64,000 nt of DNA, taken from Ischnura elegans. Taxonomy: Eukaryota; Arthropoda; Insecta; Odonata; Coenagrionidae. Each line of letters begins with the position of its first letter. Position 1 is the stretch's first letter. Of the stretch, positions 4,946-64,000 are shown one piece after another. The translations under genes were made by a program, and so were the position numbers. Under the pieces are notes generated by a model, which saw only the letters and a program-made list of their open reading frames with translations, made no database searches and was not told the origin of the DNA. The stretch is from contig NC_060259.1 of NCBI RefSeq assembly GCF_921293095.1, forward strand, positions 23,877,812 to 23,941,811, in the 5' to 3' direction.

Positions 4946-5470
4946 TCACCTGATATTGCTTAATTTCAATGTCAATTATCATAAGGAATTCAATTAAAAG
5001 TTATCATATTCCGAAATTGAATTTTCAATATTGCCCAAGCCTGAGGAGAGGAAGAATGCCCTACACTCCAATTGGGATGATGCTGTGTCCTTCACAGTAG
5101 GTACTCAGACAATTTCAATTTTTTTAAATGTGGCTTCAGCATAGTTTAATTGAAAAAATATCGAATGCTTTCCCGGCGTATGCTGGTAGTGAAGGATGCT
5201 CGGGTTCTCCATTCTCCACAGGGTTGTCTCCTGCATGGTTTTCGGCAGCCATGACTCATTCCTTAAACGTCGGCAGCAATGGAGGAGATTACCCGCTGAA
5301 AAACCCGAGCAGCTTTCACTACTAGGCTTCAACCATTCGACCTAAAAGTTGGTCTCGTCATTCATTCTGCAGCAACGCTGATAATGGTATTCCGCACTGC
5401 ATTCATGTTCAGGATGATAATGAGAGTTTGCGTGAAGGTATCGGTTGGTGCTAGAGCGCTTTCCGCACGC

Positions 5471-5537
5471 CAGAGCCGGCCTTAGGGCGGGGCGACCGGC
5501 GCGAATGCCCCGGGCCCCGCGCTTTGGGGGGGCCCGC
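5471..5537. repeat. GC-rich terminal fragment of a probable hAT-type MITE
   Basis: A sudden GC-rich block begins CAGAGCCGGCCTTAGGG and contains runs of G and C (GGGGGGGCCC). It sits in AT-rich surroundings. Termini of the CAG.GCCGG type followed by G runs are common in non-autonomous hAT elements and occur elsewhere in this window. No matching right terminus was identified, so this is called a fragment. Confidence 0.35.
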
Positions 5538-5719
5538 GTTCGTGAAAAAAAATTAAAATATACGATAGTTTGAAAACGCAATTTCAGCTATTACTGTATT
5601 GTTAAGTCCGTGCAAGACGAAAAATAATATTATGAAAAAGGAATAATAATGCAGTAATTTAAAGTAAAAAGCGCGCTTTTTATGTTTATCTTACGTTATA
5701 ATTTTATGAATTAATATAA

Positions 5720-6696
5720 TTATAAATTTAATTTGTATTGGATTGGAGCACAATGCTTGGAATCCTAAAGGAAATTGGGGATCTTTATAATGACAGAAGA
5801 ATCATCCACAGTTTATACAAAAACCAAGTAGCCGTGATAAAATCAGGGCCCAGCTGTGAAGAAGCAAGAATTAAGAAAGGAGTGCGACAAGGCTGTACAT
5901 TGTCACCCGTAATTTTCAACGTTTACATTGAAAAAGCCATTAATGAAATCAAAGAAAAGGCATTGGGAGTGAATATCCATGGAGAAAAAATAAGCATGCT
6001 AAGATTTGCCGATGACATAGCCGTTATAGCAGAAACAGAGAAGGATTTGAAAAATATTCTGATTAATATGGGTAGGGTAATGAGTAGATATCAACTGAAA
6101 ATAAGCACGAAGAAAACCAAGATCTTAGTATGCAGCAGAAGAGAAGAAGTCAAGACCAACATTAAAATAGGGAGGCAAAAACTGATAGAAGTGGATGAAT
6201 TCTGTTATTTGGGAAGCAAGATAACTAGTGACGGGAGAAGCAAGAAAGAAATTATCAGCAGAATAGCCCAGGCGAAGAGAGCATTCCACCAAAAGAGAGA
6301 CATGCTTACAGCGGGAAACTTAAATATGGATGTAAAGAAACAATTTATAAGAACCTACATCTGGAGTATGCTCCTATACGGAAGTGAGGCATGGACAATG
6401 ACCGCAGCGGAGAAAGCAAGGATAGAGGCCTTTGAAATGTGGTGCTACAGAAGAATGATGAAAATCAAATGGATCGACCGAGTCAGTAACGAGGAAGTCC
6501 TGAGAAGGGTAGGAGAGAAGAGAAGCCTCATGAAAACCTTAATAAGAAGACGGAACAACCTTATAGGCCACATCTTGAGACATGATGGCCTGATGAAGAC
6601 AATCGTCGAAGGACAGGTGGAAGGCAAGAATGGAAAAGGAAGACCTCGAACAAAATATATGGAACAAGTAAAGAGAGATGTGAAAGAGAAGAAATA
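5720..6696 (+). pseudogene. RTE-like non-LTR ORF2, 5'-truncated, first part (interrupted by a transposon)
   Basis: A frame of about 319 residues (5738-6696) encodes the reverse transcriptase palm and thumb: 'VRQGCTLSPVIFNVYIEKAI', then the catalytic 'LRFADDIAVIAE' (both Asp present), 'DEFCYLGSKI', 'LYGSEAWTM' and 'RIEAFEMWCYRRMM'. The endonuclease and the N-terminal half of the reverse transcriptase are missing. The frame stops at 6695-6697 only because a TIR transposon starts there. The reading frame resumes at 9229. It belongs to the same broad family as 463-1143 but is clearly diverged from it. Confidence 0.88.
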
Positions 6697-9226
6697 GGGA
6701 AGTGCACTAGTGTTTCAAATGCACCAAACACATTTTTAAAATTAGAGTTCAGAATAACATAATGTCGTAAAACCACAGTTTAAATCCTAATAGTGAATAC
6801 TTGATTCGAGATAACCGTGTGAAATATGGAAAAATTCAAAGGCCGCTAAAACGGGTGTCCATGTTGAATATTGGCCGTGACGTCACAAGGCAGTAGCAGA
6901 AGGCAGCTTGTACACCGTTTAGTTCTACCACTATTATTGCATAGAAAAATTACAGAATTTGAGGGTATCCGTTTTTTGCTGTCATAAAATATCTTCAGAA
7001 TATATATGTGGCTGCTTCTCTTTTGAGTAAACGACTTCATCATTGCGTAATATATTAATATTCATTTACGTGTCAACTTCAAGTTTGGAATGAGTAGTAC
7101 GAATAGCACATTGGATCTTTAATAAATGCATGATGGCATTTATTTTTCGCTGGGTATATTTTGGCACAATGCCGTTTATCATGCCAAAACTTTTTTTTGT
7201 AAGAACCGAGTCAAACTAATAAACCTATTTCAGACGTTTGCTGCAAGACTTATTCGTTGCGTATGATATTCACGCCGGCCGGAACGTTCGCCCTTCGCAA
7301 CTAGAATCATGGGATGTTAGCCTTATTTCCGAGCTGGCTGGTTGTTGCAATGGTTCGCTGTCCAGGATGGGTTCAAGAAAAGATAATCTTGGTTGGGAGA
7401 AGGAAAATTCCAACGATTTATAAATGGTATACCAAACTTTCATGTATTTATGGTTACTGAATTTTTGAATAAGGAGGACAGGTTCAACGCTCCATAGAAA
7501 TGCGAGGCGTTAAGGCTAACAAGGGGAGACCGCGTACCTTGCTGCATCTTTTTCAATTAGGGCGTTAGTTAGGCTGTAATTAATTAATTTTCATGCGTTA
7601 CTTTTTATAAGTTATATATATCAATCCAAAATGCCGATGACTATTTTGGGTCGGTTGGGGTAGTGGTATATAGCGTGCACGATTCAAAGGAAAGATCTCA
7701 CCCGAAGGACCGTGGTTCAAGACTACGTCATGGCCTTAATTTTTTTTGTCTTCATTGTGATCATACGGCATCAAGTTTATCATTAATTATAATTGCAGCA
7801 ATCATTGACATGAGACAATTTTTTTAATCATCATTATGGCGTTTAGGTATTTTAGCAGTGTCATTACAAACGCAGAGATACGATGACTACAAGGGTTGGT
7901 GTGCGCTAAAATGTTAATTTTTTCTTTGCTTATACTGACCAACTTCCACATTAAAAATGAAAACCACTCTTGCAAGAGCACATACCATTAAAGGCTCGCG
8001 GCAAGCAACAATATGCGTACAGGCATAATTAATAAGAACACAAAGCGAATATAAAATGCCATATATCTCGAACACTTGTAATTCACATTACTCCAAAGGG
8101 AGTTTACTTACTCAGTACATACCTCAGTACCTTGTACTCAGTACCTACCAGTTTACCTCAGTAGCAGTGCTAAAAGAACCATTCTGAAATATAATTTGAC
8201 TAACAAATAGGATGAAATAAAAGTTGATAACCCTGGACCGGGCGCGCTGGCGTATAAAATACGTCAATCTTTGAAAACCAAGGATTTCGACATTGTACGT
8301 ACATTCTGGGCTATAATGGTCTCGTGTATTCTTACAATGTATTTTGACTGCCTATATTGCGAGTTTTCAAAGTTGGAGGTATTGTAGCTAATTTTTTAGA
8401 TCAGCAAGATGAACCCGTCACCAGTGGAGTACAAATTACGCCGCGCGACCTGCCGTGTACCTTTATATCTGTATCACCTATAAATGTACTAATTTCAACA
8501 AATAAAGATTAACTTTAACAAAAATAGTTTGTTATCATATATGCACATATCATGGGCAAAGTACGCATTTTGCCCGGTCGTGTAAAAAAACAGTCGCGCC
8601 ATAATTCTTTAACCAAACTACTTTCAGTTTATAAATTACGTAGGTCTACGCGGAAAATGCTATATTTTGACTCAACACACTTTCTGATTTGACTGAGGTA
8701 CCTATTAAGTAAATTATTATAATATAAATATCAATTTGATCTTACAGTACCTTCAAATGATCTTCAAAACAGAATATCATCGATAGGTAAGAGTCAGGAG
8801 CAGCCTTGAACCATTTATTCCGTATAGCTTGTGCTTAAGGCACGGGAATGAATATCTTCTCCAGGCTTTTGTTTCGACGTCGAGATGAAATTTGGAACAG
8901 AAAATCATTTATAATTCTATTTTGAATTCATGTTTTCGGTACTAGACGACATTTTTAGGAAGTAAACTCCACCGATTCCCGGAAACTCTCGCCGCGCTAA
9001 AGAAGCGACGGAATACAGCGATACTCCACTGGTGACTACTGCCTTGTGACGTCACATCTCAATCAAGATGGAGGCACTGTGTTTCAGCGCAACATGAAAT
9101 TTTCCGACTTTCAAAACGTTTTAAAGTGCATACCCCAGATGCATAAAATAAAAGTGACTATACTAATGTTTCTTTTTTAGGCTAAACTTTCAAATTCAGC
9201 AATAAAAAAAAATTAGTGCACTTCCC
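6697..9226. mobile_element. 2.5-kb TIR DNA transposon (TA target) inside the RTE-like element
   Basis: The ends are inverted: GGGAAGTGCACTAGTG at 6697 and the complement of GGGAAGTGCACTAAT ending at 9226. TA flanks both ends (6695-6696 and 9227-9228). Similarity between the arms extends inwards: both carry TGACGTCACAAGGCAGTAG in inverted orientation (about 6880-6898 and 9039-9057), giving arms near 190 bp. TA duplication points to the Tc1/mariner/pogo group, but no transposase frame is visible, so this copy is non-autonomous or heavily decayed. Excising it with one TA restores an open frame of the host retroelement, which confirms the boundaries. Confidence 0.8.
7649..7735 (+). repeat. tRNA-like (SINE head) sequence
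   Basis: The sequence has a box A-like block (GTTGGGGTAGTGG) and, about 55 bases later, a box B-like block (GGTTCAAGACT). This resembles the RNA polymerase III promoter of a tRNA-derived SINE. It does not fold into a full cloverleaf by eye and the T-arm is imperfect, so a functional tRNA is unlikely. It lies inside the 6697-9226 transposon. Confidence 0.35.
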
Positions 9227-14207: not shown

Positions 14208-15077
14208 TCTATGTCTCCGGAAGAAGGTGTGGACTTTCTTTACTCAATCCTTGAGAGTGGGGTCAAAGATTTTGTGCCCATTGTGAAACCTAAGTCAAAA
14301 AAATTCCCCTCTTGGTTCAAAGCAGATACCATTCGCTCACTTGGAAACAAGAATCGTGCTTGGTATCTTTATAAATCTTTCCCGAACGAGGAAACTCGAA
14401 CTACATTCACTAACCTTCTTCGCTGTTCCAAAACGCTAATTCGCTGTGATCACAGGAGTATGTTCAGGGCATGTGTTCATCCATTTCCTCCAACCCAAGA
14501 AAATTCTGGTCCTTTGTGAATAGTCGCCGAAAGTCTCCACGCATCCCCCTTCACGTGACCTATAACAATCTCGAGGCTGTGGGTCCAGATAGACCAAACT
14601 TATTCAATCAATTCTTTACTGATTGCTTAGCTCCTTCATCTACTCTCTCTAATAAAATTGATAACATCCCCACGCCAATTCGTGGCCATTGTCTATCTAA
14701 CGTTATCACAGATCCCAAAGAAGTATTTGAGTATCTCTCCAAAATCCCTCTCCATCGTGCCCCTCGTCCCGATGGTTTGAGCCCCAAACTAATTAGACAT
14801 TGTGCATCCTCCCTCTCTCTTCCATTGAGCCTCCTACTGAACCGTTGCTTTTCCCTCGGCACCTTCCCCTCCCAATGAAAAATTGCCAACATCATTCCCA
14901 TACATAAAAATGGCCCTAAAGATGAAGTCTCAAACTACCGCCCAATATTGATACTTCCGATGCTATCTTCAGTTTGTGAAAGGATTATTCTCAACAGGCT
15001 CTACTACTTCACTTCTCCTTTTTTATCAAATAATCAGCATGGTTTCCTTCCGGGACGCTCCTGCCTGACCAAATTGG
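14208..15077 (+). pseudogene. CR1/Jockey-like non-LTR fragment (linker and N-terminal RT region)
   Basis: Two overlapping frames (14211-14519 and 14471-14878) with one frameshift, then a further stretch to 15077, encode the region between the endonuclease and the RT palm. Visible blocks are 'FPSWFKADTIRSL', 'NPRKFWSFVNSRR', 'HRAPRPDGLSPKLI' and, beyond a stop, 'NYRPI' and 'QHGFLPGRSCLTKL'. The piece lacks both the element's 5' end and its 3' half. That is unusual for target-primed insertion, which normally keeps the 3' end. It stops at about the same protein position where the minus-strand relic at 23.86 kb begins. Confidence 0.8.
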
Positions 15078-18765: not shown

Positions 18766-19740
18766 TTATTTATTTATTTATGTAACGCCAAAAACAGCAC
18801 TAAGGCATTTACATTGGGTTTATTAACAAAATAAATTATGTAAATATAATTAAAAAGCATGTATAAAAATAATCTCATAAATAACAATGACTTTCAACAT
18901 ATACAGTACATACAAAAGGTGGGTGTTAAAAAGATAGTCTTTTCAGTTGGTTATTAAAATTGGAGCGGGAGGCAAAGAGGTCAAGAGAAGAAGAAGTATT
19001 TGAGAAAGAATTGAAAATGGAGGGTAAGTGGTAACAGAGGGAGCTATGAGATATTGCCAGACAGAAATTGGGCTGGTGCAGAGCTTCATTATTGTGGGTT
19101 TTGCGAGCTGGAATGCGGAGTGAAAAGCATGTTAGGAGATCAATGTATCTGAAGGACCCATTCACAATGAAGTAAAGAAATTTGATGTCTGATGTCAATC
19201 GGTGGAGGGTGGGGTGTAATAATCCAAGCGAATTAAGTATTTTTACAAGTGAAGAGAATCTGAGGTGAGGTGTGCGATGGGGAACTATTGCTAAGAAGAA
19301 ATTGAGCGGACGGTTGAGTAGTTTTCGTGTGGTGGGAGAAGCAGTTGACCAAATGGGAGAGCAATATTCAAGGATGGGTGGCACACATCCAATGAAGACG
19401 GATTTTAAGGCACTCGGTTCGGAAATCTCGTTCAGATGATATAGGGTCCCAACCACTGCCATAGCCTTGTTAACAATGGTTTTTATATGTCCATAGAAGG
19501 TTAATTCTTGGCCAAAAGTGATGCCTAAATCGGAGAGGGAAATGACAGAGGGAACGGGTTGATTATTTAAAGTATAAGTGGAGGTGATAGTGCTATTCTA
19601 CAGCAATAAATACATCGCAGTGGATTTTCCAGGATACACAATTGCCATTTATTGCACCATTTCTCTACCGATTGAAGAGCAGTTTGTAAAACCAGGGAAT
19701 CAGCCGCGGTGTTAACCCTTTTAAATGTTTTACAATCGTC
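18766..19740 (-). pseudogene. CR1/Jockey-like non-LTR element, 3' half (minus strand)
   Basis: The minus strand continues the reverse transcriptase from the second Asp-Asp of the active site ('DDCKTFKRVNTAADSLVLQ', about 19680-19740). Through frameshifts it reaches a C-terminal frame (18926-19462) with 'VGTLYHLNEI', 'CVPPILEYCSPIW' and 'SNFNNQLKRLSF' before the stop. A 3' UTR and a short tail of ATAA units (about 18765-18781) follow. The other half is at 23465-23861. The Gypsy element between them inserted exactly after the Tyr-Ala codons of the YADD box. Confidence 0.88.
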
Positions 19741-19754
19741 GGCATTGCTGTAGA

Positions 19755-20323
19755 TTCATTGGTTCCGTTAATTTGTTTAACCTGATGGTGGCTAATCTCA
19801 ACTGACCGACAGTAGGCCGCTACTTTGGCGAGGGTTCTGTCCTCCATTCGCAGCAAAGACTCTTGAACACCCTTGTCCGGGATGCCTTGAATCACGCGGT
19901 AGATCATCATATTTTCTTCCTGAGGGGCTGGACTATCATAACCACAATTCTTTATAAGTCGCCCACAATCTGTCAGAAAGCGGTCAAATGTCTCTCCTTC
20001 CTGTTGGAACCGTTGATGAAACACGAACAGTTCGTAAATTGAGTCTTGCTTTGGATTTACAAACTTTTTGTAAGCTTCCTTAACTTTGACGTAAGCTAGC
20101 TTATTTACATTAGATAAATCAAAAGTTTCAAATAGAGCTTGCAACCCTGCGATCCCAACATAGTTTTAAGGAGAGCTATTTTCACTTTGTCCGCCGATTC
20201 ATCTTGTCCCGTGGGGATAAGATAATTTTCAAAATCCCCCACAAATATAAGCCAATCTTTCTAGGCGGAAGGGCTCTCTAAATCGACAATATCGGGCAGT
20301 TTAACAAGGGGAATACCTGCCAT
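19755..20323 (-). pseudogene. gag: Inverted gag segment of the Gypsy element
   Basis: On the minus strand an ATG at 20321-20323 opens 'MAGIPLVKLPDIVDLESPS', then meets a TAG. It continues with 'KDWLIFVGDFENYLIPTGQ' and, after a +1 shift near 20150, reads the frame containing 'ALFETFDLSN', 'FHQRFQQEGETFDRFLTDC' and 'MMIYRVIQGIPDKGVQESLL'. These are typical blocks of the Gypsy gag capsid region (the F-x-x-R-x-Q-x-x-E-x-x-x-x-F block). It faces away from pol, so it cannot be expressed with it. The end of the coding part runs to the left terminus of the element. Confidence 0.82.
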
Positions 20324-20368
20324 CTCTGCAGTTTCGGTAGTATCTAAACCACTTGGAGTACTCCACTG

Positions 20369-22158
20369 TTGGGAATACAATCATGTGTTGATTTCAATCT
20401 GGTAAAATGTGTCCATGATATTTCCAGTAGTAATAGAGATGCTTTTGTGTTACATTACAAGGAAAATTTCAGTGGGATAGGCTGTTTACCACAAAAATGT
20501 AAAATTGTCATTAGAAGTAATGCAAGCCCTGTTTGTAAACCCCCAAGGAGAGTTCCTAGTTCCATTAAGCCTCAGTTGAAATCAGAGCTGGATAGGCTGG
20601 AAAAGAAGGGTATTATAAAAGAGGTAGATACCCTTGATGCCAATTCTTGGGTTAGTAACTTGGTTATTGTCGAAAAACCTTCAGGTAAACTAAGATTGTG
20701 TCTGAACCCCACTGAATTAAACTAAGTGATTCTCAGAATTTTCATGAAATTCCCTCAATTGAACAGTTGTCTGAAAAATTAAGTAATAAGCACATATATT
20801 CAGTGTTTGATCTAAAAGAAGGGTTTCATCAGCTACGGCTTGACAATGATTCGTCGTTCAAGTGTTGTTTCTCTACCCTATTTGGGTGCTACAAATATTT
20901 ACGCATGCCATATGGGTTGTCCAATGCCCCAGAGATGTTTCAAAAAGTAACTGAGCAAAATTTTGGAGATATTACAGGTGTAGTTTTGTTTTTTGATGAT
21001 ATTCTATGTACCGGAAGCTCCCAAGCTGAGCATGATGAGTGAGTAAAACAACTGATGGAGAGGGCAAAAGTAGTTGGGGCCAAGTTCAATGGAGACAAAC
21101 TCCAGTACAAAGTATCTCAGGTGAAGTATGTTGGGCAAATATTTTCTAAAGAAGGTAAGAAACCAGACCCGGATCGTATTCATGCCTTGGTAAACTTGCC
21201 CGCACCAGGTGATCGCAAAGAACTACAGAGAGTCTTAGGAATGTTTAATTATGTTCGGACATACATACCAAATACGTCCAACAGTTGTGCTCCTCTCCAT
21301 GATTTACTTAAAACTGATGTTGCATGGCAATGGCTTCCGAGCCATGAAATGGCATTCACTCGGCTTAAAAATCTAGTATCCAATGCCCCTGTACTGGCTA
21401 ACTTTGATCCCAGTGCTAAATTAGTTATACAATGTGATGCTTCACTAAGTGGGCTAGGGTGTACGTTGTTTCAGGAAGGTCCTAAAGGTCTTAAACCAGT
21501 GCACATAGCCTCAAGATCACTCACCAGCAGTGAGTGCAATTATTCACAAATAGATAAAGAGCCTTAAGCAGTCTATTTTGCAGCTTCCAAATTTCGTTAC
21601 TATGTTTATGGCAAACCAGTCCTGGTTCAGAGTGATCATAAGCCCCTAATCAATGTTATGACTAAACCAGTGCATCAAATTGGTGCTGTTCGTTTGCAGC
21701 GACTAAGGTTGAAATTATTGAAGTATCAGTTAAATGTTACTTATTTACCGGGTAAACTTATGCATTTTGCCGACCATTTGTCACGCTCTTATGTTACAGA
21801 CCATGTCACTGATGACCCACAAATGCTAGAGGTAGTCCATTCCATTAGCAAGCATCTGCCTATGTCTAAAGAGCGTCTGTCTCAGTTTCAATTGGAAACT
21901 AGCAAAGATATGGTCTTGAGTCAAATAAGTCAATTTTGCAAGTCAGCCTGGCCAGTTTATAAAAAGTTATCCAATGAGTGTAAAACGATATTATAAGCTA
22001 AAAAATGATCTTTGTTTTGAAGAGGGTTTAATTTTTTAGGGGAAAAAGTAGTAGTTCCAGGTGCTTTGAGATCGTATGTCCTTAAGTTGCTACATGAGGG
22101 TCACTGTGGAGAAACTAAAACTAAGGCTTGAGGTAGAGGGTTATTTTATTGGCCAGGC
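20369..22158 (+). pseudogene. pol: Gypsy pol: reverse transcriptase and RNase H, broken
   Basis: After a short remnant of the protease-RT linker, the RT can be read in pieces: 'GIIKEVDTLDANSWVSNLVI' (fingers), 'YSVFDLKEGFHQLRLD' (motif A with Asp), 'LRMPYGLSNAPEMFQ' (motif B), 'VVLFFDDIL' (catalytic F-D-D box) and 'FLGMFNY'-like text at 21240. RNase H follows ('VIQCDASLSGLGCTLFQ'), with 'LVQSDHKPLINV' and 'NVTYLPGKLMHFADHLSR'. In-frame stops or shifts occur near 20723, 21040, 21565 and 21994. The RT and RNase H catalytic acidic residues I can see are intact, so decay is mainly by stops. Confidence 0.88.
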
Positions 22159-23247
22159 ATGTCATCTAGCATTATAGATTACATAAAATCATGTAGAATA
22201 TGTGAGAAGTTTCGCCCAGCCAATTTTAAGCAACCATTGCAACCCCGCTCTATGGCAAATCTTCCATATGAAAAAGTGGGTGCAGATATATTTGACTATT
22301 CTGGTAAATGTTATCTTGTCCTCATACACAAGTGTTCTAAGTGGGTTGATATTTGCAAACTTAAGTCCAAAACAGCACCAGCTGTCATAGATGCTATGCA
22401 GACTGTGTTCAGTACTCATGGGTTTCCTCGACTTCTCCTGGCAGGCAACATGCCATTTGCGTCCTGGGAGTGTAGGCAGTACTATAAAAGTAATGAAATA
22501 GAGCTGAGAACAAGTAGTCCTCACTATCCACGCTCTAATGGACTTGCGGAAATAGGGGTGAAGCTTAGTAAAATGATTCTAAAAAAGAGTCAGGAAGAAA
22601 AATCCGATTTCAGAAACCTTTTGCGTGAATAACGAAACACTCCTCTGCCTGGACTAGACTGGTCCCCATCTCAGTTGCTGGTTAATCGTTTACTACGCAC
22701 AAAGATGCCGGTTACGTATAACACGCTTAAGCCCAAAGTCATCAGACCACAGGATGTGGTAAAAGCGTTACAATCAAAGCCGAACCAAATGAAATCCAAC
22801 TGTGATAAAACCTCCAGATGGAAGGAAGTTACTTTTCAGATGGGTGAAAAGGTACTCATTAAAACAAGCAAGTGTGACAATTGGGAGCATGGTGTCATTG
22901 TAAATAGACATAAAAGTCCTCGTTCGTATTTGGTGAGAAATTCAGTGGGAAATGTAGTGAGGCGTAATATCATACATTTAAAAAAAAGAATAGTAGCATG
23001 TCCCTCATCTTATGCAACATTACTACCAGATGTGAATGCAGCAATCCATAATGCTGCAGAGTCAGAGAATCAAAATGTTGTACTAAGATCTGATATATAT
23101 CCTGTTCATCCACCTATGTCTACCGCTGGGAGTGGTCATGTGAATCAACCAGGTGTACCCAACCCTATTGTACATCCTGCTGGCCTACCTATAACTACTA
23201 CAAGGAGTGGCCATATGGTTAAACCTCCAAGGCGTCTTGGTTTGTAA
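22159..23247 (+). pseudogene. pol: Gypsy pol: integrase and C-terminal tail, broken
   Basis: The zinc-binding part shows 'SCRICEKFRP' (Cys-x2-Cys). The catalytic core starts at 'KVGADIFDYSGKCYLVLIHK' (first Asp). The second catalytic block reads 'LLLAGNMPFASWEC', where families have an Asp-Asn pair; the Asp codon is GGC (Gly) at 22444-22446. The Glu block 'RSNGLAEIGVK' is kept. A stop at 22630 separates the C-terminal region (22675-23247), which contains a chromo/SH3-like 'GEKVLIKTSKCDNWEHGVIV'. With the second Asp missing and a stop present, this integrase would be inactive. Confidence 0.85.
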
Positions 23248-23277
23248 ACTTTCAATTTTTATGTTCTTTTTACTCCT

Positions 23278-23288
23278 AAAAGGGGAGG
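23278..23288 (+). promoter_or_regulatory. Polypurine tract of the Gypsy element
   Basis: AAAAGGGGAGG lies immediately upstream of the 3' LTR, the site where plus-strand DNA synthesis is primed. Position and composition are as expected for LTR retrotransposons, and it fixes the LTR start at 23289. Confidence 0.8.
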
Positions 23289-23459
23289 TGTTGTAGATCT
23301 TTAATCTGTGTGAATCTTCAGGGTTGGCCACCATGTAACTTGGTGTGGAAACTTAGAAGGTTGACCTCTAGGTTTAGATATATATCTGTGCATCACTGTG
23401 GATTGAAGTTAGTTTTGTATTGCAATAAGTTTTTACACCACAATAAAAAGATTAAAACA
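23289..23459 (+). repeat. 3' LTR (171 bp) of the Gypsy element
   Basis: It begins TGTTGTAGATC after the polypurine tract and ends AACA at the target duplication. It contains an AATAAA signal at 23442-23447, close to the end, consistent with the R region. There is no complete 5' partner: only TGCTGTAGAT at the left end resembles its first ten bases. Confidence 0.8.
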
Positions 23460-23464
23460 GGCAT

Positions 23465-23861
23465 AGAGGAGAACACCACAGCTAGAGGGAAGAATGTCAT
23501 CAATAATGTCGTCAACGTAGAGAGTAAACAGAAGTGGGATTAATACACTGCCTTGAGGCATGCCAGAAGAAACAGGTAAGTAATGCAACAAAATACCTTC
23601 TATTAGAACTCTTTGGCTGCGGGAAGTCAGGAAATTAGAGACTAAACATAAGAGAGTGCCATGGATATTAAAACGTGACTGGAGTTTATGGATGAGGAGG
23701 GTATGATTAACGGAATCATAAGCTTTAGAAAAGTCAATGTAACAGACATCCAGCTGATACCTTTTTTCAAAGGCAGAAATTATATGGTGGTGCAGTATAG
23801 AGAGATTAGTAAGGCAGGTCCCACCAGGAAGAAAGCCAGGCCAATCTATTTCTGAAACCAT
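23465..23861 (-). pseudogene. CR1/Jockey-like non-LTR element, RT 5' portion (minus strand)
   Basis: The minus strand encodes 'GFLPGGTCLTNLSILHHHI', 'DVCYIDFSKAYDSVNHTLL' (motif A, Asp present), 'VSSGMPQGSVLIPLLFTLYV' (motif B region) and 'GVLLYA', the first half of the YADD catalytic box. The Gypsy insertion interrupts it here and the next codons lie at 19740 and below. The 5' end near 23861 is a truncation. The region preceding this protein position is found, in the opposite orientation, at 14208-15077. Confidence 0.88.
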
Positions 23862-24786
23862 TATCGCACATACTTTCAGTGCAAGCAGTTAAGTAGTGTA
23901 GTAACACACTAGCACGCATGACTATATAGCAACTACCCTCGAGAAGTAAGATAACAAATATTTTTTTATAGGCCACAGAAAAACATCAACTGGTATACCT
24001 TCCCTCCTAGCCTCTCATAAATGTATGCATTACTTGATCAAACCTTCCTTTCGCCATAAAACCAAAGTTTTCCACTTTCATTCATTCACTTCATTATTGC
24101 ATTGGCTTCTCCAACTAAGACTTCTTTGGGACTTTAAAATACTCTGAAGATGAATTATTGTAATCCTGCACCTTAACATATCACATCATGTGCACACATA
24201 AATTGGTATCAATTATCACTTCTCTAGCCATGCTTTATAGGTATAATTATAAACACACATGGGCAAATGATGGACACCACTGGTTCACTGGCATAACTAT
24301 AAGCTTGCACTAAACTGAGCATATTTCACATTAATCGGGAAGGAAAAACTGCCATGTTTATGTGGATGATACGGCATTTCCGTGAATATGAAATTTGTGA
24401 ATGTGAACTTCTGTGAAGTAATTTCCTTGGCATGAATGCCAAGACCACGATACAGACATAATAAGTCAAGTGATCATTCCATGTTGCATACCACAATCAA
24501 GGAAGCATAAGCATACATTACCTTCGGATGAGCCTTATAATGAACACAATTTTGACCAAAAAATCTCATGATGATATCAACCAATTAATTTGTTTTCTAT
24601 ACTTCTTTTGAGAAGTTCATTTCACACATGGATTGAGGTGTGGTCGAACTGATGACTATTCAACGATTTAACTTGGCAGGAGAACAGCCCCAGACTAAAT
24701 TGGTTCATCTAATTCTATCTTACACTTCTAAAATGAAAAAAGGCTATGGTTCAGTTCATTACCAAAGCAAGACATTACTTTGAACC
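23862..24786. other. Non-coding interval, nothing recognised
   Basis: AT-rich sequence without supported genes or paired termini. It lies between the minus-strand retroelement and the hAT MITE at 24787. Confidence 0.4.
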
Positions 24787-40144: not shown

Positions 40145-40874
40145 CAGCAGACTCCCGATTATCCGGCTGCGGTTTATCCGGGTTGCGGTTTATCCGGGTT
40201 GCGGATTATCCGTGCATGATTTTAACTCTCTTAACAATTTTTTCCGCAATCTTATAAAAAAACTTAAATCGGATCCAAAATCATCGGAATTACTGCATTA
40301 ATGCTAGGATACACCAGGCTTATCATTTCCGTCAGAATCCCGTTCGTAAAACGGAAGCGATCGCGCGCTAGCCGCATTCAAGGGAGCACCGATTTCGTGT
40401 TTTCCAAGCCTATCAGTGCGCGAACGCACTCCGTGATCACGGATACACGTCCCGCAGCAGATGCAACCCGGGCAACTTGTACGAGACGCGACTGCGTGGC
40501 GTGGTGCCTGACAATGTAGTTTCCGACGTCGAGCAGTCGTTTTGAAGCATTCGCGCAAATCACTTTTCTGTATCCGCGATCACACACCCACGAAAGTGTG
40601 GTTTTCGAAACCGGGCCTTACATGAAGCATTAATAATACGAGTACATTCATGTTATTGCCGCTAAAAAGATCGCGAACTGGCGAAGAAAGCTCTCATTGA
40701 GTCTGGGAAGCACGCTAATAAAGCAGAATAACGGCATAAATAATAATATATTGTTTGTTTTACGTAAATTATGATCATTACAAGACATTGGAGTTGATGT
40801 TTGGGTTATCCGTGTTTTCAGATTATTCGTGCCGTCCCTCCCCATCATTAGCCCGGATAATCGGGAGTCTACTG
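40145..40874. mobile_element. 730-bp pogo/Tigger-like MITE
   Basis: The left end CAGCAGACTCCCGATTATCC and the right end (complement CAGTAGACTCCCGATTATCC) are near-perfect inverted repeats flanked by TA on each side (40143-40144 and 40875-40876). The left arm carries three tandem repeats of a GCGGTTTATCCGGGTT-type unit. CAGTAGA.TC.CG.TTATCCGG termini with TA targets are typical of the pogo/Tigger branch of Tc1/mariner. No transposase frame is present. Confidence 0.85.
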
Positions 40875-40876
40875 TA

Positions 40877-42062
40877 TAATGGTTTAAAAGACAGTAGGTA
40901 ATGCCTTTCATTTCCAAAGGATATGAAAAAAATGGCGTGTATTGCTAAAACCTCTCTATAGTGAACCTCCATGCATCAAATCCTACAATTCTGTAGGCAC
41001 TTCAGCTTGGCCTAAGGATGTTTACAGCATGACAGAAGCTCTACCACCACCAGGTACAGGACACAACAAAACCCAAAAAATAACTCTGCATATTGAGTAT
41101 CTTTCTACAGTATGACAATGGTTGAGGTGAAGTTATATTTAACATAAGTTTACTCATGGTGATACCTCAATCAAAGTCACTTGTATCATGAATATATTTC
41201 AACATTTACTACGGTAATCAAAAGTGCCTCATCTGACTGTGGTACGCCAGCTGGTGCTTGAATTCAGCCTAAATATTAACCATCAAAAAAACATTTCCTT
41301 CATGCTCTGTTCCTGTTGTCTCTGATGACCCCTTTTTTGATCACTTCCTCATGCTAAAACTGTCATATTTTAACACGCAAAATATTATCGATTTGAGGTA
41401 ACCGCCATCAGCAGATTTTTAAAAGTTTGAGTCTCTTAAGACAAAACAGCACAACTGCCCAATGCCCTACCAAGTTATCTCTCTTTCCCTTACTTAGCAT
41501 AAACAATCATATACAAAGAGCATTATTGAATTAGCAATAAAAAAACAAAGCCGTAAGTATTTCTTTACCAAAACATGAGTGCCAAACCATACATGCATCA
41601 CGGCCAGCTGAGCATTTCACATTTCTTGCGAGCATTATGTTAAGAGAATTATATTTTTCCCGACTCATAATTAGATCACCCATCGACACAAAATTTCATT
41701 CCATAGCATGACAATAATGTTGGCACAGCAGAATTTTCAACCCACTTCAATGCAATAGTGTAGTCCTTAACAGTAGAACTGCCACGGCGGTCATTTTGAC
41801 TGCTGTCGACACTTTCAACAGTTGCCAATTAAGTGTAAACATGACTAAAAGCAAGTCATTTTAAGACTTTTCCTAACTTTATGAAAGGAAAATACTGGAA
41901 ATTTTTGGCGGAAAAACTACTATTTTCTCTCTGCAAACTACTGAAAGCCAAAAAGAATACTCCGAGAAATGAATCAACACTTACTCTGATTACTTAGGAA
42001 TGTATGCATTCAAGGCACAACTCTGTCCTGCATCCACTGGCATCCGAGCAAAATGGCATATA
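40877..42062. other. Intergenic sequence between the two MITE copies, nothing recognised
   Basis: AT-rich sequence with no supported frame. It lies between the convergent 3' ends of the two host genes. Confidence 0.4.
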
Positions 42063-42459
42063 ACTTGTGCGAGACGCGACTGTGTTACGTGGTGCCTGAC
42101 AATCTTGTTTCCGATGTCGAGCAGTGGTTTTGAAGCATTCGTGCAAACCACTTATCTGTATCCCTGATCAGGCAGCCACAGATGTGTGGTTTTCGAAACC
42201 AGGCTTTACATGGAGCATTAATAATACGAGTACAACCATGTTATCGCAGCTAAAAAGATCGGGAACCGGCAAAGAAAGCTCTCACTGAGTATGGGAAGCA
42301 CTCTAAAGTAGCAGAATAACGGCAAAAATAATATCTTGTTTGTGTTATGGAAATTATGAACATTCCAAGACATTGAAGTGAAAGTTTGGGTTACCCGTGG
42401 TTTGCGATTATTAGTGCCGTCTCTCCCCATCATCAGCCCGGATAATCAGTAGTCTACTG
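42063..42459. mobile_element. Truncated second copy of the 40145 MITE
   Basis: From ACTTGTGCGAGACGCGACTG to the right terminus (complement CAGTAGACTACTGATTATCC) it parallels 40478-40874 throughout with scattered substitutions. The left 330 bases are absent. A TA follows the right end (42460-42461). Minus-strand frames in the two copies look alike only because the copies are homologous. Confidence 0.8.
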
Positions 42460-43357: not shown

Positions 43358-43580
43358 CACTGGAGCATAACATCAAACATCTGCAAGGAAAAAATGCAAA
43401 TGAAAACAATGCAATAAGTTGTACAAAATCAAAAACAACACATTTTCTAACACAATATGAAGCATGGATAAATTATCCTGACATAGCGATCAATAATACT
43501 GAAATTTAAATATTTTCACAATGTTTTCTCCCAGTGATACCTTGAAATTCTACCAGTGATGACTTTCGAGGACAATTCAT

Positions 43581-43636
43581 GCAAAACATCAGACTCCACC
43601 CTCCATCAAGGTTTTAAGTGGGGTCGTCATTATTGC
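43581..43636 (-). promoter_or_regulatory. SECIS element in the 3' UTR of thioredoxin reductase
   Basis: On the gene strand the core reads ATGAC (43630-43626), a ten-base 5' arm GACCCCACTT, an apical loop opening with AAAA, the 3' arm GGGTGGAGTC, then TGATG. The arms pair along ten positions with one C-A mismatch and two G-U pairs at the top. ATGA faces TGAT as the SECIS quartet of non-Watson-Crick pairs, and the AA of the loop lies about 11 bases after ATGA, the conserved spacing. A lower helix (GCAATA with TTTTGC, 43636-43631 and 43586-43581) supports it. It sits 114 bases after the TGA at 43744-43746. SECIS elements recruit SBP2 and the Sec-specific elongation factor so that UGA is read as selenocysteine. 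Confidence 0.85.
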
Positions 43637-43737
43637 CACAAGAGCTCTTGCACTTCATATCCTTCAGTTGTTGCTATTTTGCTGCTATACTACCAAGAAA
43701 GAAAACTTCCTCAGGTAAACAGCAAAAATAGCATACT

Positions 43738-43806
43738 TTAACTTCAGCAAGACTTCTTCTCCACACTTATTCCAGAGGATTTGGTTATGAACATAGTTGT
43801 AAAGAC
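43738..43806 (-). CDS. TXNRD: Thioredoxin reductase (selenoprotein), last coding exon with Sec codon
   Basis: After a TTTTTTTCAG acceptor the exon encodes 'VFTTMFITKSSGISVEKKSC', then TGA (43746-43744), AGT (Ser) and TAA (43740-43738). The 22 residues have the length expected for the C-terminal tail of animal high-molecular-weight thioredoxin reductases, and the tail ends Ser-Cys-Sec-Ser. This flexible tail receives electrons from the FAD/N-terminal disulfide site of the other subunit and reduces thioredoxin. In insects without selenoproteins the tail carries Cys-Cys. Here the TGA, the serine codon and stop after it, and the SECIS downstream show selenocysteine. Automatic gene prediction would end the protein at the TGA, two residues early, losing the catalytic residue. 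Confidence 0.9.
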
Positions 43807-44630: not shown

Positions 44631-45983
<1,353 letters not shown>

Positions 45984-47872: not shown

Positions 47873-48103
47873 CCCAGTACTTTTAAGGCATATTAGTTTC
47901 CCATAGCTCTTATTCTCATCTCTCTCAGGAAGTGTGTACTCCAACGGCTGGTAATGAGTATGATACACCTCAATATCATCAGCACCATATGTTGCTATGG
48001 CATCTTCCTCTGAGTATCCAACAGACCCATATTCAAGAGGAGTAAAAACTGTGGTTGGAACCATTTTGTAGTCCATCGGCTCATTTGATTTACCATAAAG
48101 CCT
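47873..48103 (-). CDS. TXNRD: Thioredoxin reductase exon: start of the interface domain
   Basis: The GTTCTTGCAG acceptor and the ACTGGG-GTATGT donor give 77 whole codons: 'RLYGKSNEPMDYKMVPTTVF', 'TPLEYGSVGYSEEDAIATYG', 'ADDIEVYHTHYQPLEYTLPE' and so on to 'SYGKLICLKSTG'. The 'VPTTVFTPLEYG' block begins the dimer interface domain in thioredoxin and glutathione reductases, and the 'YHTHYQPLE' region is of the thioredoxin-reductase type. It joins in phase to both neighbours. Confidence 0.93.
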
Positions 48104-48178: not shown

Positions 48179-50456
<2,278 letters not shown>

Positions 50457-50584
50457 TTTTCATTCAAATTCACTCCTATTTCTTGAAGGCCAATATTTTT
50501 TGTACATGGACTCCTTCCAGTAGCAAACATTACTGTGTTGAAGGTTTGTTCTTCCTCTCTTCCATCCTCAAACTTGTATGTCAC
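50457..50584 (-). CDS. TXNRD: Thioredoxin reductase exon: end of NADPH domain
   Basis: The TTCTCTTTAG acceptor is followed by 42 codons and two bases. 'VTYKFEDGREEEQTFNTVMF' leads to 'ATGRSPCTKNIGLQEIGVNL', ending 'NEK' with the last codon split. The 'MFATGRSP' box closes the NADPH-binding domain. The donor is AA-GTAGGT; reading through it would hit TAG at once, and joining to 48377 restores the frame. Confidence 0.92.
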
Positions 50585-50656: not shown

Positions 50657-50803
50657 TGCGAGCTCCCCGGGGCTTCCAGTACACTTCTCTGTAATTTTGG
50701 TTGGGACAGCTGGCCTTATGAACTTCACTCCATGAGTTTCCATGTGGCTACCTATCATATCAGCCATCTGGCGATCAAAGCCTCTTAAAAGGATTGAGCG
50801 AAC
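50657..50803 (-). CDS. TXNRD: Thioredoxin reductase exon: NADPH domain, second half
   Basis: The TTTTACAG acceptor and the GCA-GTAAGA donor give 49 codons: '[20 protein letters not shown]', '[20 protein letters not shown]' and 'CTGSPGELA'. '[13 protein letters not shown]' contains the arginines that contact the NADPH 2'-phosphate in the family. A 72-base intron separates it from the next exon. Confidence 0.93.
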
Positions 50804-50983: not shown

Positions 50984-51752
50984 TTAACCCTTTCACTGCT
51001 GTGGACGTACCTAGTACGTCCGCACGGCAGACTGCTGTGGACGTACTTTTTCTTCCTACCTGCCATGCGGTCAGCACTTTCGCCGAAGCACTTCGAAGGG
51101 TCGTTAATCCGCGACCATATCCTCGACCAGCTCACCCACGCAGGACCGTCTCCTCGACCCTACGAGCAGGCAGCCTACCTCCCGAAAAGTGACCGCTCTG
51201 ACTGCAATTTGAAAATCAATCACTCAATACGATCATCAAAAACTTATATTTTTCATCGCACTCCTGCCAATCATGCAATCAAGTACATCTTTGAACCGTG
51301 TTTCTGCGATGAAAAATAACGGTTTTGTTAACTTTGCTAAAATGGCCATTTTTCCGGTTGTCCGCAGCCACGTTTCTAGAAAGTTAACAAAATCGTTATT
51401 TTTCATCGTAGAAACACGGTTCAAAGACGTACTTGATCGCATGATTGGCAGGAGTGCGATGAAAAATATAAGTTTTTGATGATCGTATTGAGTGATTGAT
51501 TTTCAAATTGCAGTCAGAGTGGTCCCTTTTCGGGAGGTAGGCCGTCCCTTCGACCCCCGCTGGTAGGGTCGAAGAGACGGTCCTGCGTGGGTGAGATCGT
51601 CAAGGATAGGGCCGCGGATTAGCGACCCTTCGGAGGGTGTACCACACCCATCCTGGAAGTACCTGCTCCATGGGCCCACGAAACGCATTTTAACATTTTC
51701 GCCGCATGTGAGGAGTAGGTTTTCGGAGATTGAACAGCAGTGAAAGAGTTAA
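50984..51752. mobile_element. Piggybac-like fold-back (long palindromic) MITE
   Basis: TTAA at both ends (50984-50987 and 51749-51752) is followed inwards by CCCTTTCACTGCTG and its inverse CAGCAGTGAAAGAG. The two halves are inverted copies over roughly 300-380 bp each, centred near 51365. For example, CAATTTGAAAATCAATCACT occurs at about 51208 and inverted at about 51493. TTAA targets and CCCTTT termini are the piggyBac hallmark. Because of the palindrome, the frames at 51236-51442 (-) and 51273-51479 (+) encode almost the same peptide; they are not genes. The element lies in a thioredoxin reductase intron, and its transcript would form a long hairpin. Confidence 0.88.
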
Positions 51753-56625: not shown

Positions 56626-56865
<240 letters not shown>

Positions 56866-57447: not shown

Positions 57448-58393
57448 AATAATGAGCTGGATACTGGTATAAAAATTTTGATGTCCTCAATAACTGAAGC
57501 ATTTGCCCTTTCAAAATGATAGACATAAGAAAATCATCCAAAGAATGAACTCCCCTCTACTAACTGGCAAAATATCCCATGAATTTCGTTAAGTATAGGT
57601 TTTACAGTATCATGGACCATACCATGGCATATATAGGAATATCAGAGCAGCCTAAGCTAATCTCCGTAGGAAAAAAGGTGAATTTTTAAGAGCATGCACA
57701 CACAGTCAGAGGGAAACTAAGGATGACACAAATGCTCACTAGTAAAACTAGTAGACTAGTAAAGTGTAATCCCTGTTTATTTGGAAATCAAAGGTCAAAT
57801 TTAACCTCAAATGACAAGCTCAGAATGGTGGCCGCTACGGGTATATTACATTTGACATCATAGGTACACATTTCACATTGTGAGAGAGAAGCTGCCTACA
57901 TCAACGAACTTATTGGGGGATTGAAGCACTACTTTCGGAAGCTCAGGGAAAATTTGTAGTAAACTAATTTACAATATCTTGGAGTGAAAACTTAGTCCAT
58001 GGAAACAAGTATTTTTCATTATAAAAATATTTAAGCTACCAATACAACATTCAGCTCACACTAAGTCTAGCATTTTAATGAATAATATAATCAACATAAT
58101 CGTGACACAAGAGCAACAGCTCACTTGAGATTGGTTCATTTTCACTCCATTGCATTCACCATCATCACATTTTAGAAAGTGATTTCATTCATGAACCATT
58201 TCTCATCCATTGCTTCATCAACTATCTGTTGCATCCCCAACAGAAATACTATACAAGTTTCTCTTCACTAGCATTAAAGACAAACCTTCAACAAATACTA
58301 CTACATTCAAGAAACAAAAAGGATTTCAGGGAGTGGTATGACTAGCTTTAGATACTGCTTTTATGAAAAGAAATTCAAATGAAGCAAGAAAAT
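57448..58393. other. Intron sequence of thioredoxin reductase, nothing recognised
   Basis: Part of the 4.3-kb intron between the exons at 56632-56865 and 61164-61306. The short frames in 56.9-57.4 kb and here have no domains. Confidence 0.45.
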
Positions 58394-58476
58394 GATGTCT
58401 CCATGTTCCTGGGTTTCACCGCGTGGATTTTCACAAAGAAAATCCACGCGGTGAAACCCAGGAACATGGAGGCATC
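58394..58476. repeat. Near-perfect hairpin, 39-bp arms, 5-base loop
   Basis: Arm 1 (58394-58432) and arm 2 (58438-58476) are complementary over 39 positions with a single mismatch that is a G-U pair in RNA. The loop is ACAAA. GAAGCAAGAAAATG occurs just 5' (58381-58394) and again at 58513-58526 on the same strand. The near absence of divergence means a recent origin. The size resembles small-RNA precursor hairpins, but processing cannot be judged from sequence alone. Confidence 0.9.
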
Positions 58477-58604
58477 ATCTAGACAACGCCGCGGAAAACT
58501 ACGAATCAACTTGAAGCAAGAAAATGGACATCATTGCCTCGGAAATCCTACAGGAAATCATGTCTCCTGTTATATTGATATGATACAAGCTTTGAAGTGT
58601 ACTA

Positions 58605-61163: not shown

Positions 61164-61306
61164 CTTTAATTTATGTTTATCCAGGAATGTAGCATAGGCA
61201 TTATAATATTTAATTTTTTTCAACACGAGATCACTACGATAACCAAAATTGAGTGACATGATGTGCTTCTTCACTTCACCAGCCATTTTTTCCCAGTTGT
61301 GCTTAA
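61164..61306 (-). CDS. TXNRD: Thioredoxin reductase, first visible exon (FAD domain)
   Basis: The ATTTTGTAG acceptor is followed by two bases that complete a split codon and 47 whole codons: 'KHNWEKMAGEVKKHIMSLNF', 'GYRSDLVLKKIKYYNAYATF' and 'LDKHKLK', then an AAG-GTAAGC donor. 'HNWEKM..AV..HI.SLN.GYR' with 'K..YYNAYA.F' is typical of the FAD domain after the redox-active disulfide. The N-terminal exons (dinucleotide motif and the CVNVGC disulfide) are not found up to the right edge and must lie beyond it. The eight visible exons give about 405 of an expected roughly 490 or more residues. Confidence 0.92.
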
Positions 61307-63278
61307 CTACAAAATGAAAATTAGAAACAACATCAATAGAATTATAGGGTTGTAATCACATCACAATCAATGCTAAAATAAGTATTTAAATAACTTAACT
61401 AAGGCATAGAATTAAGCCAAATATTACAAAAAAACAGTAGAAGCACAATATAATGAATCTGATAAAAACTAAATTTCACAACTATGAGCTTTTAATATAA
61501 GTTCCCATGAAATTTACATGCATCCATATAGGGAAACTTCTTTGCAGCAAAACTTCTCAAGAACAACTGTCATAAAATTTAAGTTCGTTTTCATATAATC
61601 AAGTTTTATGCAAGTCATATCCATCTTCAATTTTTTTCTAAATTCGAGCAAACTTTGCAATTACACGACTTAGAAAGTGACGTAGATTTGAAACATTGGA
61701 AATCATTAGACTAAATTGCCAAATTACTCCTTATGCAAGTGAAGTCTAAGTAAGGCTTTGAGATCCCTTGAACATCATGGAATTGAGGCAGCAGGAGGGG
61801 AAACAGAGTTCATATGAAGCCCTTAGAAGACTGCAAATTTGGACAAATAGCCTATGAGAATTCATGACTCAACAGACATTGACACGGCAGCTAGGTGACA
61901 CCTTCATCCTTTCCCTCATTCATGTCTCTGACCTAATTTTGAGGCCCCTGAATGCAAAGAATGGTGATGGAAATGGGGGGATGGAAAGGGGTGATTGGTG
62001 GACGAGGCTTCGAGAAGGACAGAACCTTAACCACGAATGTGTCAGTTTTGTGTACTTGACATGAGGCAAAATCCTAGAGAGGGAGCCTTAAAGGTCAAAA
62101 TCGTTCAGCACCTCTGATATAAATTTTGGTATCACCTTTGGACAATGCATTTGATAGCATAGAATTTAAGTCTATAATATTGAAAATAACATTTATAGGG
62201 GGGACAGGGGACATGATAGCACTAAACTTCCACTGGAGTATGACATTTACATATTGAGTCACTACATGATTGCACAAATTGAGTGTCACCGCAACATCGA
62301 ACAACTGCCCTGCTAGATGGCACGTCATCTTTAGGAATCTCGAGCCATCCTCTAGTTTATATGCCTCATGACTTCACACGGGAAGAGGATTCGTGACCAA
62401 GTACCCACGTGCCACATTGGTGCATACGGCAAGCCAGGATGTCCAGCACCACACCAAGTAAATGAGTTTCCCGCAAACTCAGTTGAGTACATGCAGGCCC
62501 CTAACTAGGGCAGATCAGGGGGGAATGTGCGCCAGGCGGTGGGGGTGGCAAAATTTGCAATTGAGTCACAATGCAAACAAATTATTTGTAAAAGTCATGT
62601 TTAAGTATATTGTAGTGTATTAATATAAGTGTATTCCTGTAAATGTTATTGAAGTGTCATTCACAAATAAAACTTCTTAGTAGCATACAGAGTGTGTAAT
62701 TTCAACTACTGCATCTCAAAAAATAGGTTATGGAGGTGATATATTTTAGAGGTGGGGGAAAGGTGAAGGAAGGGGGATTAGGGGGTGGCAAACTGATCTT
62801 AGCTATAGAGCGTTCCACATTTAGTTGACAGTACGGGCCTTATGGATAACAGTGTTGCCAAGCTTCCGCTCCGCCGGCAGGCATCCTAACAGCGTATGCA
62901 ACCACACATAATAGAGCGCCAAAATGGTTTAGTTCAAAAAGGATTTAGGGATCGCACGAAAGACGGCGTAAATTGGGGAATATTTTAGCGTTAATTACAA
63001 TACCTTTGCTGCAATATATAAGGAAAAGTTTTTGTTATTTTATTATGTACTTATTCAATGCACAAGCTGAATAATGAATAATCTGTAATGTAAAAAATAA
63101 CAATAAATTGAAGGATAATAAAAATTATTGCCACTCCTGAATGAGACAAAATTTCTATTCCTTCCATATTATGCATTATTGTTTTGGCTCTGGCTAGTGT
63201 TACATGAAAGGCGATGTTGTATATGACATCATCAATCTTTAATTTTTTTTAAATATCCCGTACTTGGTTTATTGTAAA
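61307..63278. other. Intron or upstream sequence with a G-rich repeat fragment
   Basis: No thioredoxin reductase exon was found here. A G-rich fragment (about 62500-62800), starting near a TAACTAGGGCAGATCAGGGG stretch and ending GGGGGTGGCAAAC, looks like a decayed G-run MITE. Near 62810-62830, GAGCGTTCCACATTTAGTTG may be a terminus of the transposon whose coding relic starts at 63279, but no partner is in the window. Confidence 0.4.
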
Positions 63279-63993
63279 TTAAAGATCTCTTTTCAAGCTG
63301 ACATCTTCGAAGCTAATTTCCTTAATGTTCTCTTTCCTCCACCTTGTATTAGGCAAGGATTTCAATTTCCTTGAGTAATAAGAGGCATTATCTACCACTA
63401 TAATTGATCCTTCGGGTAAGTTTGCAAGAAGTGAGTGCTCAAACCATCTCTCGTAACACTCACCACCCACTTCTTCATGCTCATCCATTGAGTGCTTTTT
63501 GTACAGAAACACATGCAATGCTTCTTTTATGAACCCATTTACCGTTCCTGCGTGTATAATAGCAAACCGTCCTCCTCGGGAAGTAGGGGCCAAGCCCAGT
63601 ATCGAGGCCCTCTGCCAGTATTTAGTCCAGCAAGGAAAGCTTGACGCGGGTTTTCTAATTGTCTGTTTCGCATACTAATGTTCACTATTTGTCCAACATT
63701 AATCCAACTTTCGCCTGTGAATATACTCGTCCTGCGTTCACGACGATATTTTTTTAGCTGCCTTAAATAATTAATTGTGCCACCAACGATGTATCATCCC
63801 TTTCGATAAGGATGCTTCTTTTCCGCCTGCGTTCGTACACGAAGCCTATGTCCAAAAGAAGACGATATAGTGCTGTCCTTTTGTAATCTGGGAGAATACT
63901 ATCCATATTTACCGATTTTAAGATGGATTTTAAAGTCGGAGGAATATTTTTCACGAAAGATTCATGTACCTTCCTTCTTATTCCCGATCTCAC
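63279..63993 (-). pseudogene. DDE-superfamily transposase relic (IS630/Tc1-like), continues beyond window
   Basis: The minus strand shows a helix-turn-helix-like region ('YKRTALYRLLLDIGFVYERR'), then in shifted frames 'RRTSIFTGESWINVGQIV', 'NPRQAFLAGLNT', and the frame 63279-63593 with 'TSRGGRFAIIHAGTVNGF', 'YERWFEHSLLANLPEGS' and 'IIVVDNASYYSRKLKSLPN'. The order resembles a multicopy arthropod transposase of the DDE_3 type, where the first catalytic block is normally 'TDETW' and the second 'VVDNASYH'. Here the first Asp is Gly ('FTGESW'), and several frameshifts (63595-63760) break the frame. The element is inside or upstream of the thioredoxin reductase gene. Confidence 0.75.
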
Positions 63994-64000
63994 AAAATCG

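Follow-up and report, generated by a model that had tools for sequence, protein, structure and literature searches.

A thioredoxin glutathione reductase gene with a predicted Ser-Cys-Sec-Ser tail in the odonate Ischnura elegans

We suggest that a 69-nt exon of I. elegans (exon J) is the last coding exon of the one complete thioredoxin glutathione reductase (TGR) gene found in this species, and that the encoded enzyme ends in Ser-Cys-Sec-Ser (SCUS). We put the probability of this reading, in which the selenocysteine (Sec) and the mechanism are predictions, at roughly 0.85. A Sec-containing TGR with a SCUS tail in an insect would, as judged from the sequence, be a new form of a known enzyme type. 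Exon J lies at 43738-43806 on the minus strand of the window, i.e. the whole stretch of 64,000 nt that was analysed, which covers positions 23877812-23941811 of contig C19. This contig has 123,641,648 bases in a genome of 1,722,721,009 bases in 110 contigs; we take it to be the X chromosome, which is listed at 123.64 Mb in an excerpt of PMC9975421.

As read in the window, exon J has the structure VFTTMFITKSSGISVEKKSC-TGA-S-TAA and is preceded by the acceptor TTTTTTTCAG. The codons after VFTTMFITKSSGISVEKKSC are TGA (43746-43744), AGT and TAA (43740-43738), so that the exon encodes 22 residues, Sec counted, with the sequence VFTTMFITKSSGISVEKKSCUS. The preliminary description had reported, without naming the strand, a KKSC-TGA-Ser-stop tail of the length expected for such an enzyme, and both points are borne out: the tail closes an open, in-phase gene model on the minus strand, and its 22 residues equal the length of the human TXNRD1 tail. 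Seven further exons within the window, and another four past its edge, join in phase to exon J. Its TGA is kept in all eight genomic copies of the exon, the 69 nt of which are identical throughout (8/8 candidates scored). From this TGA and a SECIS-like element downstream of it, we infer that the codon is decoded as Sec; default annotation would end the protein at the TGA.

The further exons in the window were placed by comparison with human TXNRD1 followed by inspection of splice sites. All eight window exons, C to J, are on the minus strand. Upstream of exon J, they comprise exon I (44679-44813; ...GIHPTCAE, in the dimerisation domain), exon H (47873-48103; RLYGKSNEPMDYK...KLICLKSTG), exon G (48248-48377), exon F (50457-50584; VTYKFEDGREEEQTFNTVMFATGR...), exon E (50657-50803), exon D (56632-56865) and exon C (61164-61306; (V)KHNWEKMAGEVKKHIMSLNFGYRS...). 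Exon C is the most 5' of the window exons; on its 5' side, an intron (61307-64000, minus strand) leads toward four 5' exons outside. These were found by reading the DNA past the window edge, and they are likewise on the minus strand of C19: exon B at 23945399-23945591, which carries the CVNVGC motif; exon g3A at 23952107-23952324, which contains DYDLVVIGGGSGG; exon g2 at 23953530-23953593, which encodes part of the glutaredoxin (Grx) domain; and exon g1 at 23953676-23953756, with the ATG and the motif CKFC. The open frame of the exon with DYDLVVIGGGSGG extends upstream into the glutaredoxin-like LTSQTTVPNVFMHGQHVGGCDATEKYYRDGTL, and the end of the Grx domain and the start of the FAD domain thus lie within one open exon, g3A. 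Joining all of these gives a model of 12 coding exons (1773 nt) for a protein of 590 residues, in which Sec is residue 589; all introns are GT-AG, and the only stop codons in the coding sequence are the TGA and the TAA. Exons g1, g2, g3A and B were each found at a single genomic place (15/15 candidates scored in one search, 10 candidates in the other), "once" and "not found" being valid here and below at the sensitivity of a search that scores the best candidates only.

Several other features of the window deserve mention. Two direct repeats of 272 nt, 87% identical and 1.6 kb apart, lie downstream of the TGR gene at 40474-40745 and 42062-42333. Open reading frames that by eye resemble fragments of reverse transcriptases, LTR retrotransposons and transposases are present at 439-1143, 4532-6697, 14450-14878, 18926-23888 and 63279-63674. 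Finally, hairpins at 51288-51427 and 58388-58484 match miRNA models below the cut-off; since they match on both strands, they are probably inverted-repeat elements and not miRNAs.

The domain composition of the 590-residue protein is that of a TGR. Pfam matches over the cut-off include Glutaredoxin (6.8e-16, residues 14-77), and Pyr_redox_2 (9.3e-58) and Pyr_redox_dim (3.2e-29) were also matched. The dithiol CxxC of a TGR is present as CKFC at residues 22-25 of the Grx domain. CVNVGC and the penultimate Cys-Sec pair are both in the model, with Sec assigned from the TGA and with Ser residues as flanks, not the Gly residues of GCUG. The NCBIfam model GRX_euk scores 88.8 bits (cut-off 87.25), and the TGR model TIGR01438 scores 712.5 bits (cut-off 475.85) in a match that spans residues 104-589 and that, by itself, cannot separate a TGR from a thioredoxin reductase (TrxR). 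The top PDB match is a solved TGR (699 bits across residues 2-582). Among the 60 shown of 209 PDB matches, the nine best (682-699 bits) span the Grx and TrxR parts, while the best TrxR scores 665 bits; the name of these nine chains is thioredoxin glutathione reductase in seven cases and thioredoxin-disulfide reductase in two, and mammalian-type TrxR1 chains come next. Taken together, the Grx domain fused in frame and the family and PDB scores identify the gene as a TGR. Thus, of the name given to it in the preliminary description, selenocysteine thioredoxin reductase, the Sec and the membership of the TrxR family stand, while the identity as a plain TrxR was dropped once the 5' exons beyond the window had been read and the in-frame Grx domain had been found. 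A TrxR-only isoform may arise through an alternative first exon.

Counting the window copy, a region of 0.5 Mb (C19:23422906-23953756) holds the 3' half of the TGR gene eight times. Exon D has at least eight copies on C19 (23.436-23.934 Mb; 10/61 candidates scored) with a spacing of 63-76 kb, and stretches of 2.3-3.2 kb around it show 96.7-100% identity from copy to copy. Exon J together with the SECIS-like element occurs eight times in the genome (8/8 candidates scored). Exon C, the most 5' exon in the repeated units, has six genomic copies and was not found for copies 3 and 6 in genome searches with 10 candidates and with 15/15 candidates scored. Apart from a match of 47 nt to exon g2 on C11, the genome searches gave no further exon B and no further Grx exon; this match (C11:882694-882740, 91% identity) is a paralogue or a fragment. 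Because the 5' exons were each found once, the other seven units are 5'-truncated, and a reading of the array as eight complete TGR genes was dropped. Six of the seven sister units also carry frameshifts: exon D has gained TA in copies 2, 4 and 5, exon F has gained one nucleotide in copies 2, 3, 5 and 6 and is also split by about 4 kb in copy 5, and exon G has lost one nucleotide in copy 7. The exception is copy 1, in which exons C-J are in frame with the TGA and the SECIS-like element, the core region of the latter having one change (AUGAUGA instead of AUGACGA). The seven other units are, on this comparison, probably partial duplicates, most of them broken. Units 1, 4 and 7 diverge from units 2, 3, 5 and 6 and the window at a point roughly 0.8-1.1 kb past the tail, which implies at least two unit types. 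Special conservation of the block with the tail and the SECIS-like element was considered and found unsupported, the first 2.4 kb around it differing by only 0.29-0.91% per 300-column bin in the seven other copies.

Tandem units that are about 97-100% alike over 2.3-3.2 kb are hard to assemble, and the copy number of the array could in part be an assembly artefact. We consider this unlikely, for the units differ by substitutions, indels and spacing (63-76 kb), the array loci examined contain no run of N of 10 or more, and the assembly was built from HiFi reads with Hi-C (PMC9975421, in excerpt).

A different concern is that the TGA is a true stop, in which case the protein would end in ...KKSC without a redox pair and the gene would be decaying amid pseudogenes, as six of its seven sister units have done by frameshift. 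The SECIS-like element bears directly on this point. It lies in the 3' UTR at 43579-43639 on the minus strand, 104 nt after the TGA, and was detected with the Rfam model SECIS_1 at 27.9 bits, under the Rfam gathering score of 35 (E = 0.28 in the window scan and 0.0091 in a 2 kb scan); of the 19 matches listed at E<=10 for the two strands of the window, no other is to a SECIS. The core AAUGACG, the AAAA in the apical loop and CUGAUG are present, and core, strand and position are as expected. Its folding energy is ordinary (MFE z -0.51, with 48 of 200 shuffled sequences folding as well) and was dropped as an argument for a SECIS. A pattern scan (9 pairs) matched the element and two plus-strand sites elsewhere in the window against an expectation of 0.28 per 64 kb strand (60 Markov sequences); the spacing in this pattern was set after inspection of the element itself, so the scan lends it weak support.

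The preliminary description had regarded a genome devoid of all Sec machinery as decisive against a selenoprotein, but tRNA-Sec, SPS2, SepSecS and eEFSec were all found. Three genes for tRNA-Sec exceed the Rfam cut-off, each with the anticodon TCA according to ARAGORN; they lie at C6:34567525-34567610, at C6:34556704-34556789, 11 kb from the former, and at C11:46274578-46274663. The search behind them scored 53 of 113,898 first-look candidates and gave 38 matches, 35 of them below the cut-off; one of these 35 was checked and is a tRNA-Ser. For selD, four exon-level matches, none singly over the curated cut-off, fall into two genes. The one at C5:12316180-12328683 is SPS2, with LTKFADLRG-TGA-GCKVPQ at the Sec position, and the second, at C19:16225648-16228769 (16.2 Mb), is presumably SPS1. 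SepSecS gave five exon matches on C3, one of which has a TAG within the matched stretch. eEFSec gave five exon matches at C5:130.76 Mb with 51-69% identity to the human protein; a further match on C12, with 30% identity, is probably another GTPase. The presence of tRNA-Sec, eEFSec, SepSecS and an SPS2 with an in-frame TGA makes Sec decoding well supported. Thus, the low SECIS score and the ordinary folding energy have to be set against a window copy that is open through 12 exons, a SECIS core whose position and strand are as expected, and a genome in which SPS2 itself requires read-through of a TGA. We therefore regard a true stop as very unlikely, and the proposal in the preliminary description of a Sec enzyme of the TrxR family with a SCUS tail is supported alike by the TGA, the SECIS-like 3' UTR element and the Sec machinery.

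The genome contains a second reductase. Protein searches revealed a separate gene on C5 at about 100.176-100.198 Mb, the last exon of which ends in SCCS without a TGA; a 600-nt stretch of this gene, extending about 0.4 kb past the stop, gave no SECIS match. In a ranking of tail lineages (TGR or TrxR) by bit score, the best match of the C5 last exon is the Drosophila TrxR (2nvk; 45.5 bits), whereas that of the SCUS tail is a TGR (47.5 bits), with the first Drosophila chain following at 23.7 bits and rank 30 of 34. A 69-residue N-terminal piece of the C5 gene fails to discriminate, scoring 113.8 bits to the fly enzyme and 116.3 bits to human TrxR1. A Cys TrxR of the Drosophila type is characterised by SCCS and by having neither Sec nor a Grx domain; the window gene lacks this combination, and the SCCS tail is that of the C5 gene. 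The sequences therefore indicate that SCUS, in a Sec TGR, and SCCS, in a Cys TrxR, coexist as two paralogues in one animal, and the C5 enzyme may, by analogy, serve thioredoxin as in flies.

This arrangement bears on the proposal of the preliminary description that SCUS is an intermediate between GCUG and SCCS, in other words, that the gene encodes a plain Sec TrxR caught between two states of one gene lineage. The tail is really SCUS; the TrxR of the shrimp Litopenaeus vannamei, likewise an arthropod Sec enzyme of the TrxR family though not an insect one, ends in GCUG (excerpt of PMC11898193); and the fly enzyme ends in SCCS (excerpt of PMC11508645). The Grx domain fused in frame speaks against a plain TrxR, and the intermediate state is contradicted by the SCCS enzyme, which has a gene of its own in this genome, with a last exon that scores 45.5 bits to Drosophila 2nvk as opposed to 23.7 bits for the SCUS tail. 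We conclude that the proposal is largely refuted and highly improbable. What stands is the accompanying observation that serine flanks coexist with Sec, as seen in the TGR tail, and because the same flanks accompany Sec in the TGR and Cys in the C5 TrxR, the serines are not tied here to the loss of Sec. Lastly, we see hardly any room for a cassette array, in which one promoter and Grx/FAD start would be spliced to one or another set of exons C-J, these sets acting as alternative 3' ends and each bringing a SECIS of its own: all units share one strand and lie downstream of the only 5' end found, and copy 1 is in frame from C to J with TGA and SECIS, but six of the seven units are frameshifted, no exon C was found for units 3 and 6 in our searches, and the spacing is 63-76 kb with the in-frame unit about 0.5 Mb off.

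The I. elegans TGR most directly invites comparison with the flatworm enzyme (PDB 2x8c and others, Schistosoma mansoni; 685 bits across residues 9-589). Both are fusions of Grx and TrxR with similar dimensions (a 598-residue chain as compared to 590 residues), and both have a dithiol Grx domain, CVNVGC and a C-terminal redox pair. The flatworm tail is GCUG, whereas that of I. elegans is SCUS. The Grx motif is CPYC in Schistosoma (excerpt of PMC8914392) and CKFC in I. elegans. Moreover, I. elegans is an insect and has a separate TrxR in the same genome. The filarial nematode Grx-TrxR (PDB 7p0x; 588 bits, from residue 58 onward only) is also a selenoprotein fusion from an ecdysozoan, but its Grx domain is without the active-site motif and its tail is GCUG (excerpt of PMC8914392), as opposed to CKFC and SCUS. 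Mammalian TGR (TXNRD3) is a further Grx-TrxR selenoprotein fusion, the Grx domain of which is monothiol in the mouse (excerpt of PMC3530482) and not dithiol as in I. elegans. Drosophila TrxR shares with the I. elegans TGR the TrxR family and the Ser residues that flank the C-terminal redox pair; it differs in having no Grx domain and Cys in place of Sec, and its relative in I. elegans is the C5 gene. In a 2024 review (PMC11508645), the redox pair of insect TrxRs is given as Cys-Cys, and the serine flanks are reported to have been proposed by Gromer et al. 2003 as a compensation for the missing Sec. Excerpts of PMC5330540 and PMC4244043 describe Sec as retained in some insects and other arthropods, with a Sec TrxR in a centipede and Cys forms in all holometabolous insects, and SCUG is shown once in PMC8584023. 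In the part of the matching literature covered, consisting of open-licence papers, we found nothing on an odonate TrxR or TGR or on a SCUS tail.

In flatworm TGR, on which we model the electron route (PMC8914392, in excerpt), the C-terminal pair supplies both thioredoxin and the Grx domain. In the I. elegans enzyme, NADPH would deliver electrons to FAD and CVNVGC; the C-terminal Cys-Sec pair of the partner subunit would take them up next and hand them on, either to thioredoxin or, via CKFC of the Grx domain, to GSSG. No third locus was found with the glutathione reductase (GR) model TIGR01421, all 35 matches of which belong to the TGR array or the C5 TrxR (27/46 candidates scored). A weak Pyr_redox_2 match at C9:66.03 Mb (32.4 bits) is not among the matches of the GR model, and a free glutaredoxin-like match with 43% identity lies on C8. 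That no separate GR was found accords with the 2024 review (PMC11508645), according to which none of the insect species studied to date has one. Arguing by analogy, the TGR may recycle GSH directly, no separate GR having been found. In the filarial fusion, both GR and Grx activity are lacking (PMC8914392), and a Grx-TrxR fusion alone is therefore no proof of GSSG reduction; the filarial fusion, however, is without the Grx motif, which is present in I. elegans.

We speculate, with slightly less than even confidence, that an old insect lineage has no GR but has retained a Sec TGR for the direct reduction of GSSG, beside an already Cys-converted TrxR, and that the serine flanks arose or persisted regardless of the loss of Sec. 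If so, serine flanks could not be read as compensation for lost Sec, and Odonata would be an exception to the rule that insects recycle glutathione solely via thioredoxin. The SCCS TrxR and the SCUS Sec TGR in one insect would make a natural pair for testing serine compensation, and the same pair bears on the question of which enzyme reduces glutathione in early-branching insects.
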